From positions 1-64,000 of the forward strand of contig CACJXK010000003.1 of assembly GCA_902597335.1 (NCBI GenBank): a stretch of DNA of 64,000 nt, given 5' to 3'. This document shows, piece after piece, positions 50,365-56,091 of this stretch. Numbering within the stretch: position 1 is the stretch's first letter; every line of letters begins with the position of its first letter. This stretch comes from an uncultured Pelagibacteraceae bacterium. Its GTDB lineage: Bacteria > Pseudomonadota > Alphaproteobacteria > Pelagibacterales > Pelagibacteraceae. The translations under genes and the position numbers were made by a program. The notes under the pieces were generated by a model that was given only the letters and a program-made list of their open reading frames with translations, made no database searches and was not told the origin of the DNA.

Positions 50365-51057
50365 ATGATATTTAATCAACTATTTGATCAAAAATCATCA
50401 ACCTACACTTATATTATATCGAGTGGTAAAGGGAGAGAAGCATTAATCATTGACCCTGTGATTGAACATACTGATGGATATATTAATTATTTAGAAAATT
50501 TAGATCTAAAATTGGTTAAAGTAATAGATACACATATTCATGCAGATCATGTAACTGGATTAAACGAATTAAACAAAAGAACAAATTGTACTCGTATAAT
50601 GGGTGAAAATTCTAAATCTGAAGTTATTGATATTAAATTAAAAGATGAAGAAAATGTGAGTATTGAAAATATTAACCTTAAAGCTATTTACACCCCTGGT
50701 CATACTGACTGTTCTTATAGCTATCTAATGAAAGATAGAGTTTTCACAGGGGATACTCTTTTAATTAATGGAACTGGTAGAACTGACTTTCAAAATGGTA
50801 GTGCTCATCAGGCTTATGAGTCATTATTTGGTAAATTGTTAAAACTTCCTGAAGAAACGCTTGTATACCCTGCCCATGATTATAATGGAAAAAAAAATTC
50901 AACAATAGGTAATGAAAAAAATAATAACCCAAGACTTCAGGTTAGCTCAAAAGAGGAGTATGTTGAAATCATGGATAATCTTAATCTAACAAATCCAAAA
51001 ATGATGGATGTAGCAGTTCCAGCGAATTTAAAGGGTTTGACGCTCAAAGAACTTTAA
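50365..51057 (+). CDS. MBL-fold hydrolase, ETHE1-like persulfide dioxygenase
   Basis: DTHIHADHVTGL; YTPGHTDCSYSY; GDTLLINGTGRTDFQNG; YPAHDYNG. Confidence 0.88.
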   Translation: MIFNQLFDQKSSTYTYIISSGKGREALIIDPVIEHTDGYINYLENLDLKLVKVIDTHIHADHVTGLNELNKRTNCTRIMGENSKSEVIDIKLKDEENVSIENINLKAIYTPGHTDCSYSYLMKDRVFTGDTLLINGTGRTDFQNGSAHQAYESLFGKLLKLPEETLVYPAHDYNGKKNSTIGNEKNNNPRLQVSSKEEYVEIMDNLNLTNPKMMDVAVPANLKGLTLKEL

Positions 51058-51111
51058 AATCAAGCTTTATAAAAGTGTTGTTTTTAGAAAATTAAGAATT
51101 ATATAAGACTT

Positions 51112-51222
51112 ATGGTATGCAATAATTCACACTGCAAATGTAAAAACTGTTCTTGTGACAGATGTGTTTGTAAAAACTGTGATTGCAAACCATCATCAGA
51201 AAACTGCTGTTGTAATAAGTAG
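51112..51222 (+). CDS. 36-aa polycysteine mini-protein (metallothionein-like or Cys-responsive leader peptide)
   Basis: MVCNNSHCKCKNCSCDRCVCKNCDCKPSSENCCCNK: 12 Cys in 36 residues, read manually; missing from ORF track. Confidence 0.75.
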   Translation: MVCNNSHCKCKNCSCDRCVCKNCDCKPSSENCCCNK

Positions 51223-51250
51223 TTTAATTTAAAATTTATCTTAAACATTT

Positions 51251-51832
51251 ATGAATGATTTTTTAGAGTCGATAATTAAAAGAGATCCTGCTGCAAGGTC
51301 AAAGTTAAGTTTAATACTTACTTATCCTGGTGTTAAAGCTGTATTTTTTCATAGAATTGCGAACTTTTTTGCCGTAGCAAAATTTCATCTTTTAGCGAGA
51401 ATAATTTCTCAATTTTCAAGATTTTTAACTGGTATTGAGATTCATCCAAACGCAAAAATTGGTAAAAATCTTTTTATTGATCATGGTATGGGAGTAGTTA
51501 TTGGTGAAACTTCAGATATAGGTGATAATGTAACTATTTATCATATGGCAACATTAGGTGGTATTGCTCCAAGTATTAATTCAGATAATCAAAGAAATAT
51601 TAAAAGACACCCAACGCTAAAAGAAAATGTAGTTGTAGGATCTGGCGCACAAATACTTGGACCAGTTGTAGTTGGTAAAAATTCAAAAATTGGAGCTAAT
51701 GCTGTTGTTACAAAAGATGTTCCAGAAAATGCAGTAATGGTTGGAATTCCAGCAAAAAATGTTGGAACTGCATCTGAAGAATTTAAACCCTATGGTGTTG
51801 CACCAGGGGGTGATACAAAGCTTGATGTATGA
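51251..51832 (+). CDS. cysE: Serine O-acetyltransferase
   Basis: [43 protein letters not shown]. Confidence 0.95.
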
Positions 51833-52830
51833 AAACTTTACAAAATAATTTTGTCGAAGCAATAGGAAACACTCCTTTATTTAAATTAAAGGCCGCATCA
51901 GAAATTACTGGTTGTAATATTTATGGAAAAGCAGAGTACCTTAATCCAGGAGGCTCTGTAAAAGATAGAGCAGCTTTAGCTTTGATAAGAGACGCTGAAG
52001 AAAAAAAACTAATTTCAAAAGGAGGAATAATTGTTGAAGGGACTGCTGGCAATACTGGAATTGGTTTATGTCTTTTAGGAAATTCGATTGGTTACAAAAC
52101 TATAATCGTAATGAATGATAATCAAACACAAGAAAAAAAAGATTTACTAAGAAGTATAGGTGCTGATTTGAGATTGGTACCACCAAAACCATATAAAGAT
52201 GAAAATAATTTTGTTAAGTATGCAGGTCGTTTAGCTGAAGAATTAAAAAGTAGCAATAATCATGGTGTCGTTTGGGCTAACCAATTCGATAATACTGCAA
52301 ACATGAAAGGGCATTATGAAACTACTGGACCTGAAATATGGGAACAAACTGAGGGAAAAGTTGATGGATTTGTTTGTTCCTCTGGAACTGGAGGAACTAT
52401 TGCTGGAGTTAGTAGTTTTTTAAAAGAAAAGAATAAAAACATTAAAATATATTTATCAGATCCAACTGGTTCATCCCTATATAATTACATTGAAAATGGG
52501 GAATTAAAGAGTGAGGGTGGCTCGATAACCGAAGGTATTGGATCTAGTAGAGTTACTGCAAATTTTGCAAAAGCAAATATTGATGGAGCATTTTCAATAA
52601 GTGATCATGAGTCTTTACCTGTTTTATTCGATTTAATTGAAAAAGAAGGTCTTAGTTTAGGTACTAGTTGTGGGGTGAATATAGCTGGAGCTATTAGATT
52701 GGGTAAACTTTTAGGTCCTGGTAAAACGATTGTAACAATACTTTGTGATAAATCTGATAAATACAACTCAAAGATGTTTAATAAATCTTTTTTAAAAGAA
52801 AAAGGCCTTCCCTATCCTCACTGGATATAA
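51829..52830 (+). CDS. cysK: Cysteine synthase
   Basis: [30 protein letters not shown]; overlaps cysE via ATGA. Confidence 0.92.
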
Positions 52831-52915: not shown

Positions 52916-53299
52916 ATGGACGTAAAAGAACAAACTAAAAAAGCATATGAACTTTTTGGTTCTGGAGATATGGAAACATTTTTTAACGATATGATCGATG
53001 ATGAAATCGTTTGGACTTTTCCAGGTAAAGAAGGTGTACATCCACTTTCTGGAGTTCACAAAGGAAAACAAGCTATGATGGCTGCAATGTCTAAAATCCC
53101 AGCTACTTGGCCAAATTTCCATTTAAAAGTTTTAGATATGATAAGTGAAGGAAATAAAGTTTTTGCAAGAGTTCATGCAACTGCAGATAACATGGATACT
53201 ATGTTTGGTCACTATTTTGAAGTAAGTGATGAGGGAAAAACTAAAGTTATGATGACTTTTGATGATACACTTAGCATGTTCAATGCAATGAAGAAGTAA
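52916..53299 (+). CDS. SnoaL/NTF2-like protein
   Basis: VKEQTKKAYELFGSGDMETFFNDMIDDEIVWTFPG; strong SD AAAGGAG. Confidence 0.8.
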   Translation: MDVKEQTKKAYELFGSGDMETFFNDMIDDEIVWTFPGKEGVHPLSGVHKGKQAMMAAMSKIPATWPNFHLKVLDMISEGNKVFARVHATADNMDTMFGHYFEVSDEGKTKVMMTFDDTLSMFNAMKK

Positions 53300-53307
53300 G
53301 GAACAAT

Positions 53308-53634
53308 ATGTCAATTTTAGAAAAACTAAATAAAGCAATCATGGAAAAAGATGGTGCAGCAGCTGGTGAGCTGGTGCACGATGACTACAAAATGTTTTCC
53401 CATCTTAAAGGAGAATATGTGCATATGGGTAAGGCAGGTATGGTTGAAGCCGTAAGTAAAGGGATGATGAGTCCCGCAAAATACAGGATCCTTTTTGAAA
53501 ATGATGAAATTGGTTTTGATCATTCGTATGTTACTTATCAAGATGGAAATACAGAAGCTTTGATGTGCTGTTGGAAGTTTAAAGACGGTAAAATCATTGA
53601 ATTAGAAACTGGAGCAACAAAAATACCAAAATAA
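53308..53634 (+). CDS. Small NTF2/SnoaL-like protein, paralog of 56126..56446
   Basis: MSILEKLNKAIMEKDGAAAGELVHDDYKMF...LETGATKIPK. Confidence 0.75.
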   Translation: MSILEKLNKAIMEKDGAAAGELVHDDYKMFSHLKGEYVHMGKAGMVEAVSKGMMSPAKYRILFENDEIGFDHSYVTYQDGNTEALMCCWKFKDGKIIELETGATKIPK

Positions 53635-53658
53635 CTATAAACTTACAAAGGAGTTAAT

Positions 53659-53724
53659 ATGGCCAGCATTGAGTTTAAAGCTTTTGATAAAGCATATGAA
53701 TTTGCTGGGGTTTGGGGGGAATAA
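53659..53724 (+). other. 21-aa ORF with strong SD just upstream of next gene; possible broken or frameshifted 5' end
   Basis: AAAGGAG-TTAAT-ATG; MASIEFKAFDKAYEFAGVWGE; GGGGGG run before stop. Confidence 0.45.
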
Positions 53725-53725
53725 A

Positions 53726-53995
53726 ATGGTAAAAATGGTTGGTAACTTTGAGGTAAAAGACTGGGCTCATTGGAAAAAAATGTTTGATGAACATTCTGGC
53801 CCAAGAGAAGCAGCAGGTATTAAAACTATTTACGTTGGAAATGAAATAGAAAATCCAAATAAAGTACATATTGTGATGGAAACACCAGCAGCAGACACTA
53901 TGCAAAAATTTATGCAGAACCCAGAGAATGCTAAAGTAATTGCGGAATCTGGACATAAACAAGAGACAACAGTAATGAGCGTTTGCTCTGATTAA
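53726..53995 (+). CDS. Small alpha+beta barrel protein
   Basis: MVKMVGNFEVKDWAHWKKMFDEHSGPREAAGIKTIYVGNEIENPNKVHIVMETP. Confidence 0.7.
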   Translation: MVKMVGNFEVKDWAHWKKMFDEHSGPREAAGIKTIYVGNEIENPNKVHIVMETPAADTMQKFMQNPENAKVIAESGHKQETTVMSVCSD

Positions 53996-54021
53996 ATTAA
54001 CAAAAAAAAAGGAGATATATT

Positions 54022-54315
54022 ATGTTTGTAAAAATAGAACAAAAACTTTTAAAAGGTTTTAATTCTTGGAAGGAAATGATGCTTGCAAATAGTGAGAAAC
54101 TTAAAAAGTATGGAATGACAATAGCTTTTGCAGGTGCAGATAAAGAAGATGATAATGCTATGACTGTAGTTATTCATTTTGAATCACCCGAGGGCTTAAA
54201 AGGTTTTGGTGGAGATGCAGAACTAACTCAAGCAAGAATAGATTCTGGAGTAATAATGGACCAATCTAAAATGACCATGATGACTGATGAATCTGTAATG
54301 AACCACAAAGGATAA
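54022..54315 (+). CDS. Small alpha+beta barrel protein (DUF3764/ABM-like)
   Basis: ORF with AAAGGAG SD. Confidence 0.7.
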   Translation: MFVKIEQKLLKGFNSWKEMMLANSEKLKKYGMTIAFAGADKEDDNAMTVVIHFESPEGLKGFGGDAELTQARIDSGVIMDQSKMTMMTDESVMNHKG

Positions 54316-54320
54316 TTCTA

Positions 54321-54806
54321 ATGATGAAAAAAATATATGTAATTATGTTTTTTTTAATATTTACAACATCAAGTTTTGCAGATGGTCATAAAGGAAAAAT
54401 TGATCTTAAAGGTTTTATTGTTGGAGATAACAAATTTCTTACTGATAACGAGGGTAACTTTTTAACTTTTACTTACGATGGAGTTGGAGGATTAATGGCA
54501 GTCGAAGGTACAACATTCATGGATAATGCTTCACAATATTGCATTGGCGCAGGTACAATCCCAGGAAAGGGATTTGAAATGGGACACTGTAAAATAAATC
54601 AAATGGATGGGGATACTATTTTTACATACTACGAAATTCCACTTGGAGACTCAATGAATGGTACATTTAAATGCTTAGGGGGAACAGGAAAATATAAAGG
54701 TATAGAATGTAGTGGCGCAACAGGTTACACACAAATTAACTCAGCCCAAGAAAATAAATTTGCCTCATCAATTTATTTTAAAGGTGGATATTCTTTAATG
54801 AAATAA
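54321..54806 (+). CDS. Secreted protein of unknown function
   Basis: Signal peptide MMKKIYVIMFFLIFTTSSFADG; Gly-rich beta pattern GTFKCLGGTGKYKGIECSGATGY. Confidence 0.7.
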   Translation: MMKKIYVIMFFLIFTTSSFADGHKGKIDLKGFIVGDNKFLTDNEGNFLTFTYDGVGGLMAVEGTTFMDNASQYCIGAGTIPGKGFEMGHCKINQMDGDTIFTYYEIPLGDSMNGTFKCLGGTGKYKGIECSGATGYTQINSAQENKFASSIYFKGGYSLMK

Positions 54807-54859
54807 TTGAATAATCATTAGATTAATTTAAAATACGAAATAAAAAAAAGGAAAAAAAA

Positions 54860-55147
54860 ATGAAATACTATATGGTAACTCACACTTTTAAATCTAAAGA
54901 AATGAAAGACAAATTTAACGAGGTTTTAGGCGGCATGTCCAGAGAAGATATGATTAAATCTTCCACTAGCGATAAAGCTAAATGCCAAATGACATATTAC
55001 ACTCCAGGTGATACTATGACAATGTTTTGTCATTGGATGGCAGAAAGTACTGATGCTATTAATGAACAGCTTTCTCAGATGAATGATTTTTTTGAACCTC
55101 ACCAATTTACTGAGGTTAAAGAAGAAGTTTTCGATTTTAACAAATAG
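54860..55147 (+). CDS. Small alpha+beta barrel protein (DUF3303-like)
   Basis: MKYYMVTHTFKSKEMKDKFNEVLGG. Confidence 0.65.
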   Translation: MKYYMVTHTFKSKEMKDKFNEVLGGMSREDMIKSSTSDKAKCQMTYYTPGDTMTMFCHWMAESTDAINEQLSQMNDFFEPHQFTEVKEEVFDFNK

Positions 55148-55156
55148 GAGGAAAAA

Positions 55157-55447
55157 ATGGAAAAAGAAGTTTTAGTGATCGTAGATTTGAAAGAAGGAAA
55201 ACTTGAAAAATTTATGGGATGGATGCAATCAGATGAGGGTATGAGTGTAAGAAAATCAGCAGCTCATCCAGAAAAAACTATAGGAGCAGTAAAGCCAGAT
55301 AAAAGTGGTGTAATGTTTAAAGTATTTGTTCATAATATGGAAAAAATGAAAGAACTAGTATCTGGCACACATCCAGTTGCTAAGCCAATTTACGATGAGT
55401 GTGTTGAGAAAATGACTGCTTGGGATTTGACTAAAGTTGAAATGTAA
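55157..55447 (+). CDS. Small alpha+beta barrel protein
   Basis: ORF with AGGAGG SD; MEKEVLVIVDLKEGKLEKFMGWMQS. Confidence 0.65.
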   Translation: MEKEVLVIVDLKEGKLEKFMGWMQSDEGMSVRKSAAHPEKTIGAVKPDKSGVMFKVFVHNMEKMKELVSGTHPVAKPIYDECVEKMTAWDLTKVEM

Positions 55448-55448
55448 T

Positions 55449-55772
55449 ATGGCAAAATATTATGTAATTGGAAAAGTAAGTAAGGAGCTTTTACATCGAA
55501 TGCAGAAAGATCCATCAGCTGACAGATTTGCTTCAACAAAAAAAGTTGTTGAAGCTGTAGGAGGTAAAATGATTAGTTATGAGTGGGTTCGTGGTAGATT
55601 TGATGTAATGTGTTGCGTTGAAGGAGACGCTGAAACTGTTGTTGGAATGAAAGTAGCTTTTTTAAATTCAGGACTTATGGATGAATTAATGATCCATGAG
55701 GTAATTGATTATAATAAAGCATTTGGAAAAGCTGCTGATGCAGCCAAATCAGTAGTCAAACCCGCAGAATAA
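55449..55772 (+). CDS. Small ferredoxin-like fold protein
   Basis: MAKYYVIGKVSKELLHRMQKDPSADRFASTKKVVEAVGGKMISYEWVRGRFDVMCCVEGD; ATG at 55449. Confidence 0.65.
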   Translation: MAKYYVIGKVSKELLHRMQKDPSADRFASTKKVVEAVGGKMISYEWVRGRFDVMCCVEGDAETVVGMKVAFLNSGLMDELMIHEVIDYNKAFGKAADAAKSVVKPAE

Positions 55773-55803
55773 ATTATAATTAATTTATTGAAAGGAGAAG
55801 ATA

Positions 55804-56091
55804 ATGAGCGCATATCTATTGGCGAATATAACAGTAAATAACCCTGAGAATTACAAAGAGTACGTTGAGAAAGTAAAATCCATTGTTGAAAAATTTGATG
55901 GAGAGTATTTGGTTAGAGGGGGAGAAATGTCTGTTATAGAAGGTGATTGGCCTCACAAAAGAAATATTGTTATTAAATTTCCATCTCATGAAAAAGCAAT
56001 GGAGTGGTACAATTCTGAAGAATATAAACCAATTAGACAAATAAGACACGACAATGCTGTGTCAAATTCTATAATTGTTGATGGAGTTTAA
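55804..56091 (+). CDS. DUF1330 family protein
   Basis: MSAYLLANITVNNPENYKEYVEKV...PSHEKAMEWYNSEEYKPIRQIR. Confidence 0.85.
   Translation: MSAYLLANITVNNPENYKEYVEKVKSIVEKFDGEYLVRGGEMSVIEGDWPHKRNIVIKFPSHEKAMEWYNSEEYKPIRQIRHDNAVSNSIIVDGV

Follow-up and report, generated by a model that had tools for sequence, protein, structure and literature searches.

A conserved cysteine-rich mini-protein encoded directly upstream of cysE in SAR11 bacteria: a probable thiolate peptide of the metallothionein type

A very short open reading frame, one third of whose codons specify cysteine, is located immediately before the cysteine biosynthesis genes in a 64,000 nt stretch of DNA from an uncultured Pelagibacteraceae bacterium (contig CACJXK010000003.1), referred to below as the window. 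The locus raises the question of whether this frame is a gene and, if it is, whether its product acts as a protein or its translation acts as a switch for the genes that follow. A sequence-only reading of the window had offered both a metallothionein-like peptide and a cysteine-responsive leader. The position and reading of the frame given there agree with the present analysis, as does the distance of 28 nt between its stop and the cysE ATG. The features of the locus are collected in Table 1.

Table 1. Features of the cysE locus in the window and the evidence on which each assignment is based.
Feature	Position	Strand	Evidence
MBL-fold protein, possibly persulfide/sulfur dioxygenase	50365..51057	+	PF00753; NF040641 partial
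Predicted sigma-70-type promoter: TTGTTT (51078-51083), 16 nt, TATATA (51100-51105)	51078..51105	+	Box position across homologues
Cys-rich mini-protein, 36 aa, 12 Cys (11 family-invariant)	51112..51222	+	ORF reading, homologue alignment, codon analysis, chance test
Weak A/U hairpin, -2.5 kcal/mol, in the spacer from peptide stop to cysE ATG	51222..51246	+	Folding
cysE, serine O-acetyltransferase, second cistron	51251..51832	+	TIGR01172 above curated cut-off
cysK, cysteine synthase A, 4-nt overlap with cysE stop	51829..52830	+	NF007989 above curated cut-off

The window peptide has the sequence MVCNNSHCKCKNCSCDRCVCKNCDCKPSSENCCCNK. It contains no aromatic residues, and its Cys are flanked by Lys, Arg, Asp and Asn in the fashion of metallothioneins. 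Of 342 window ORFs no shorter than 30 aa, the mini-ORF ranks first in Cys content at 33%, and the runner-up has 20%. Shuffling the window 20 times gave a highest value of 19%, and the number of ORFs this Cys-rich that is expected from the binomial distribution is 4e-8.

An initial search of relatives gave four homologues. A profile built from 12 members detected intact homologues in 61 of the 300 genomes searched from the window's genus (Pelagibacteraceae, SAR11), two partial and weak matches (G100 and G146) having been dropped. Outside the genus one genome of another Pelagibacteraceae genus carries a homologue (L117); no homologue was found in 384 other genomes of a class-wide sample or in the viral, phage and plasmid collections searched. 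For a second approach 101 genus genomes were taken and the sequence upstream of cysE was read, which gave three types of locus. In the first, the MBL-fold gene and cysE are separated by 24-52 nt with nothing between them. In the second the distance is 150-250 nt, and 21 of the 22 loci encode an intact Cys-rich peptide of 36-44 aa; the remaining one (G072) holds a decayed remnant of 19 codons. The third type has a different gene upstream of cysE and the peptide is absent. The decayed copy, MACNISNCKFKQASENCCC-stop, lies about 93 to 33 nt before an intact cysE in L007, the locus of G072; its middle is gone and its start and CCC-stop end are retained.

Members of the family are 36-44 aa long with about 11-13 Cys and nearly free of His, and share the core C-x4-C-x-C-x2-C-x4-C-x-C-loop-C-x-C-x-P-...-C-C-C. 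Differences in length are restricted to the loop that separates the two central CxC units and to the extreme C-terminus, and all are in frame; in nearly all copies the CCC is followed by 0-3 codons and then the stop. The strict five-residue CxC period described from the window alone is correct for the close clade of the window, where a Cys15 is added and the loop is the shortest of the family. It does not extend to the rest of the family, where neither Cys15 nor the short loop is conserved. The cysE tree requires at least seven changes of peptide state, three of its rows (L119, L142 and L153) being labelled peptide-less yet carrying a variant peptide. This number would be in keeping with an early gain and several later losses, without being proof of them.

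Across 83 distinct sequences the eleven Cys columns hardly vary, yet the codons behind them swap freely between TGT and TGC (590 and 365), and pN/pS at these columns is 0.002; these figures are biased since the members were picked by a profile rich in Cys and by a pattern of Cys. The set chosen by cysE, which escapes most of this bias, has two Cys replaced among 231 positions. L119, L142 and L153 are extra members outside the Cys pattern, with one Cys replaced in each. At the non-Cys columns a crude pooled estimate of dN/dS is about 0.42, Asn5 is found in 83 of 83 sequences and the Pro that follows the final CxC in 82. The constraint thus reaches every Cys from residue 3 onward, plus Asn5 and Pro, with fixed spacing. 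The sequence-only reading had called for comparisons of conservation, of purifying selection and of synteny with cysE, and all three gave positive results across the homologues. Judged by its codons and alignment, the mini-ORF is a real gene and a member of a selected small-protein family of SAR11.

The -10 box of the predicted promoter begins 12 nt 5' of the peptide ATG in the window. In 92% of the 83 distinct homologues a TATA box begins 12 nt ahead of the ATG, compared with 8% of the window genes that have an upstream gap; a generic consensus promoter scan of the window did not report this promoter. A transcription start 6-7 nt past the box would hit the ATG, and the peptide mRNA is therefore predicted to be leaderless, starting at the ATG in nearly all homologues. 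In relatives that lack the peptide a ACTATATA box precedes cysE itself, mostly 13-14 nt or 32-52 nt before the ATG, and a cysE with the box at -13 or -14 is predicted to be of the leaderless type. Because the same box stands before cysE in these relatives, the peptide is placed between the cysE promoter and cysE, and by gene order it is the first cistron of the cysE-cysK unit. Across most of the genus (L016-L075) the ACTATATA box is conserved before cysE at a distance that depends on the clade.

The identity of the two downstream genes as cysE and cysK, proposed earlier, is confirmed by the family matches in Table 1. The upstream gene had been read as a persulfide dioxygenase; its MBL fold is clear and the function is plausible, but the specific match is below cut-off, the second-best NCBIfam match being the sulfur-dioxygenase half of Blh. 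The lack of a Shine-Dalgarno motif before cysE is as noted before but unremarkable, since just 12 of 60 window genes have an SD-like motif, and as a sign of coupling it was rejected for that reason.

Of 84 genomes with the peptide, 83 have it as the immediate upstream neighbour of cysE, and two different gene neighbourhoods are represented. In the other genus (L117) a glyoxalase-fold gene is followed by the peptide and then by cysE and msrB, and the MBL-fold gene is absent. Because this copy sits in a different neighbourhood without the MBL-fold gene, the link of that gene to the peptide is weakened and looks incidental: it appears to be a genus-level upstream neighbour outside the conserved core, and on the gene orders compared the constant partner of the peptide is cysE. 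The exception is G227 (L101, positions 1-1500), where the MBL-fold gene is followed by a peptide with every Cys and then by small genes that resemble those normally 3' of cysK. Neither cysE nor cysK was found in this assembly, which is 66% complete. Retention of the peptide in this one incomplete genome suggests that it has its own function; the assembly may be chimeric, or the deletion may be very recent. In the window, cysK is followed (52916-56091) by a run of small genes, several of them SnoaL-like, DUF1330, DUF3764-like or SCO4226-like, and some without a family match.

The family is probably one of translated and selected thiolate peptides of the metallothionein type that act autonomously. 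That the product acts as a protein is indicated by the fixed CxC/CxxC spacing from residue 3, the constraint on non-Cys residues, the eleven thiols in fewer than 45 residues, the scarcity of aromatics and the copy in G227. Of the broad traits of metallothioneins the family shows very small size, about 30% Cys, CxC, CxxC and CC motifs, almost no aromatic residues and conservation of Cys at the protein level, and metal-thiolate binding would be the most economical reading. The metallothionein-like hypothesis is accordingly the better fit of the two that had been put forward, by its Cys spacing, constraint and G227, although none of the metallothionein families and structures searched gave a match. 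The strict linkage to cysE in two neighbourhoods exceeds the needs of a stand-alone metal buffer and counts against it, and no metal regulator was seen near the peptide.

As a mechanism, the peptide would be translated from a leaderless mRNA along with the enzymes that make its own cysteine, and a shared transcript with cysE-cysK would provide the cysteine that a product of one-third Cys requires. The eleven thiolates would bind d10 metal ions (Cu(I), Zn, Cd) in the cytosol. The peptide could then buffer metal, and possibly sulfane sulfur, in cells without heavy-metal P-type ATPases or a PF02069 metallothionein, and its translation may secondarily affect cysE. Heavy-metal P-type ATPases were found in none of 300 genomes of the genus (14 of 14 controls positive) and PF02069 metallothioneins in none of 151 genomes (Synechococcus control positive). 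SAR11 genomes, those of Pelagibacter included, are streamlined and have been described as having almost no detoxification systems (PMC4161860).

A regulatory contribution might involve the spacer before cysE (51223-51250 in the window), which is 25-38 nt long across loci. Spacers of 20 representatives folded with a mean z of -1.85 against -0.18 for 37 control regions (p 5e-5), a comparison in which related spacers within clades are not independent. Folding of the whole leader is ordinary (mean z -0.77, 18 representatives). The spacer hairpins consist nearly entirely of A-U pairs, range from 0 to about -5 kcal/mol and differ in sequence by clade, and their signal is taken as a lead only. Examples of the stems found in different clades are UUUUUAG/CUAAAAA, GUUUUUG/CAAAAAC and AUUUAAAU/AUUUAAAU. 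An Rfam scan of the whole window gave no family. No intrinsic terminator was found between the peptide ORF and cysE, and a transcription attenuator of the trp type was rejected on this ground.

One reading that uses the spacer is a dual role, in which a metallothionein-type peptide has its translation coupled to cysE by the terminal CCC and the spacer hairpin, so that its output and cysteine synthesis would reflect cysteine supply. This is unlikely, although it unites the peptide-level constraint with the strict cysE linkage, the predicted leaderless-type promoter and the spacer structure signal, and a start and a CCC-stop end persist in the decayed G072 copy. The hairpins on which it depends are weak and clade-specific and come from spacers that are not independent within clades. 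That such a bifunctional leaderless first cistron serves as the operon's own cysteine sensor is likewise unlikely.

A pure attenuator, in which the peptide itself is inert, is decidedly unlikely. Under a shortage of Cys-tRNA, ribosomes would slow at the Cys codons, mainly the terminal CCC, and slowing on the leaderless mini-ORF would change how accessible the cysE start is, 25-38 nt further on. The peptide heads cysE-cysK in all but one of the genomes that carry it, the other genus keeps the peptide-cysE order among different neighbours, and mycobacteria offer a precedent as far as it is described in PMC4633059 and, for Canestrari 2020, in PMC9031893. The earlier proposal of a cysteine-responsive leader holds up in so far as the predicted promoter would be of the leaderless type, consecutive Cys codons stand near the end of the ORF in nearly all copies with cysE next, and the spacer tends to form hairpins above controls (p 5e-5). 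It fails to account for a spacing and for other residues that are held constant along the entire peptide; even Cys3 is kept, for which a stalling model has no use. Selection would be expected to be confined to the Cys run, an expectation of the present analysis and not a published criterion, and it is not so confined. Against a pure attenuator stand also the absence of a terminator, the ordinary fold of the whole leader, the clade-specific hairpins of nearly all A-U pairs and the peptide kept in G227 without cysE. Most relatives, moreover, run cysE without the peptide, and in HTCC1062, a strain not known to carry it, sulfur limitation drew no response from cysE or cysK (PMC5069961). That the ORF is spurious or decaying and preserved by synteny is scarcely credible, for although about 80% of the genus is without the peptide and one copy has decayed, selection is purifying, the indels are in frame and a second genus has conserved the peptide, all of which speaks against this reading, and the codon evidence contradicts it.

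On the favoured metallothionein-type reading, an overlooked and conserved thiolate mini-protein would be tied into the cysteine operon in roughly one in five genomes of the genus. If it is metallothionein-like, it would be the first such system of SAR11 as far as the literature consulted shows, and one on which scarce reduced sulfur is spent. If the dual role were true, a single gene of 36 codons would both store thiol or metal and meter cysteine synthesis in bacteria that are among the most abundant in the ocean. Related genomes that either have or lack the peptide provide a clean natural comparison for leaderless upstream ORFs outside mycobacteria.

Searches of Pfam, NCBIfam and PHROG with all members gave nothing meaningful, and searches of the PDB by profile and by single sequences gave a chance match to a ZZ domain alone (E 0.25). 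An AlphaFold2 model of the peptide without metals had almost no secondary structure (pLDDT 72, pTM 0.34) and was uninformative. None of 12 members matched PF02069 at E up to 10. By these comparisons the family is without a match in the libraries searched and outside the known bacterial metallothionein family. The bacterial metallothioneins that have been studied use His as well as Cys and have a GATA-type zinc-finger fold (PMC10612145). The SAR11 peptide resembles SmtA and BmtA (PF02069) in being small and Cys-rich with CxC and CxxC motifs and no signal peptide, but it is shorter, nearly His-free and without a profile match in any member. The alpha domain of animal metallothioneins and yeast Cup1 have about 11-12 Cys in 30-50 residues, CxC and CC runs and few aromatics, and the vertebrate alpha domain uses eleven Cys for four divalent metals. 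The SAR11 peptide has a similar Cys count, the same kinds of runs and few aromatics; those proteins are eukaryotic with another order of Cys, and the peptide has no detectable homology to solved structures. The likeness would be convergent, if the two are alike at all.

Among regulatory systems, the SAM-II and SAM-V riboswitches that control sulfur genes in SAR11 (PMC5069961) likewise act at the level of the leader, whereas the window is without any Rfam family. The polycysteine attenuators of mycobacteria, as far as they are described in PMC4633059 and, for Canestrari 2020, in PMC9031893, have a leaderless-type first ORF before cysteine or sulfur genes, as is predicted for the SAR11 locus, and share with that locus a cluster of Cys codons at the C-terminal end. 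The SAR11 peptide differs from them in having eleven Cys spread over its length in fixed spacing, constraint on its other residues and a spacer of 25-38 nt before the next gene.
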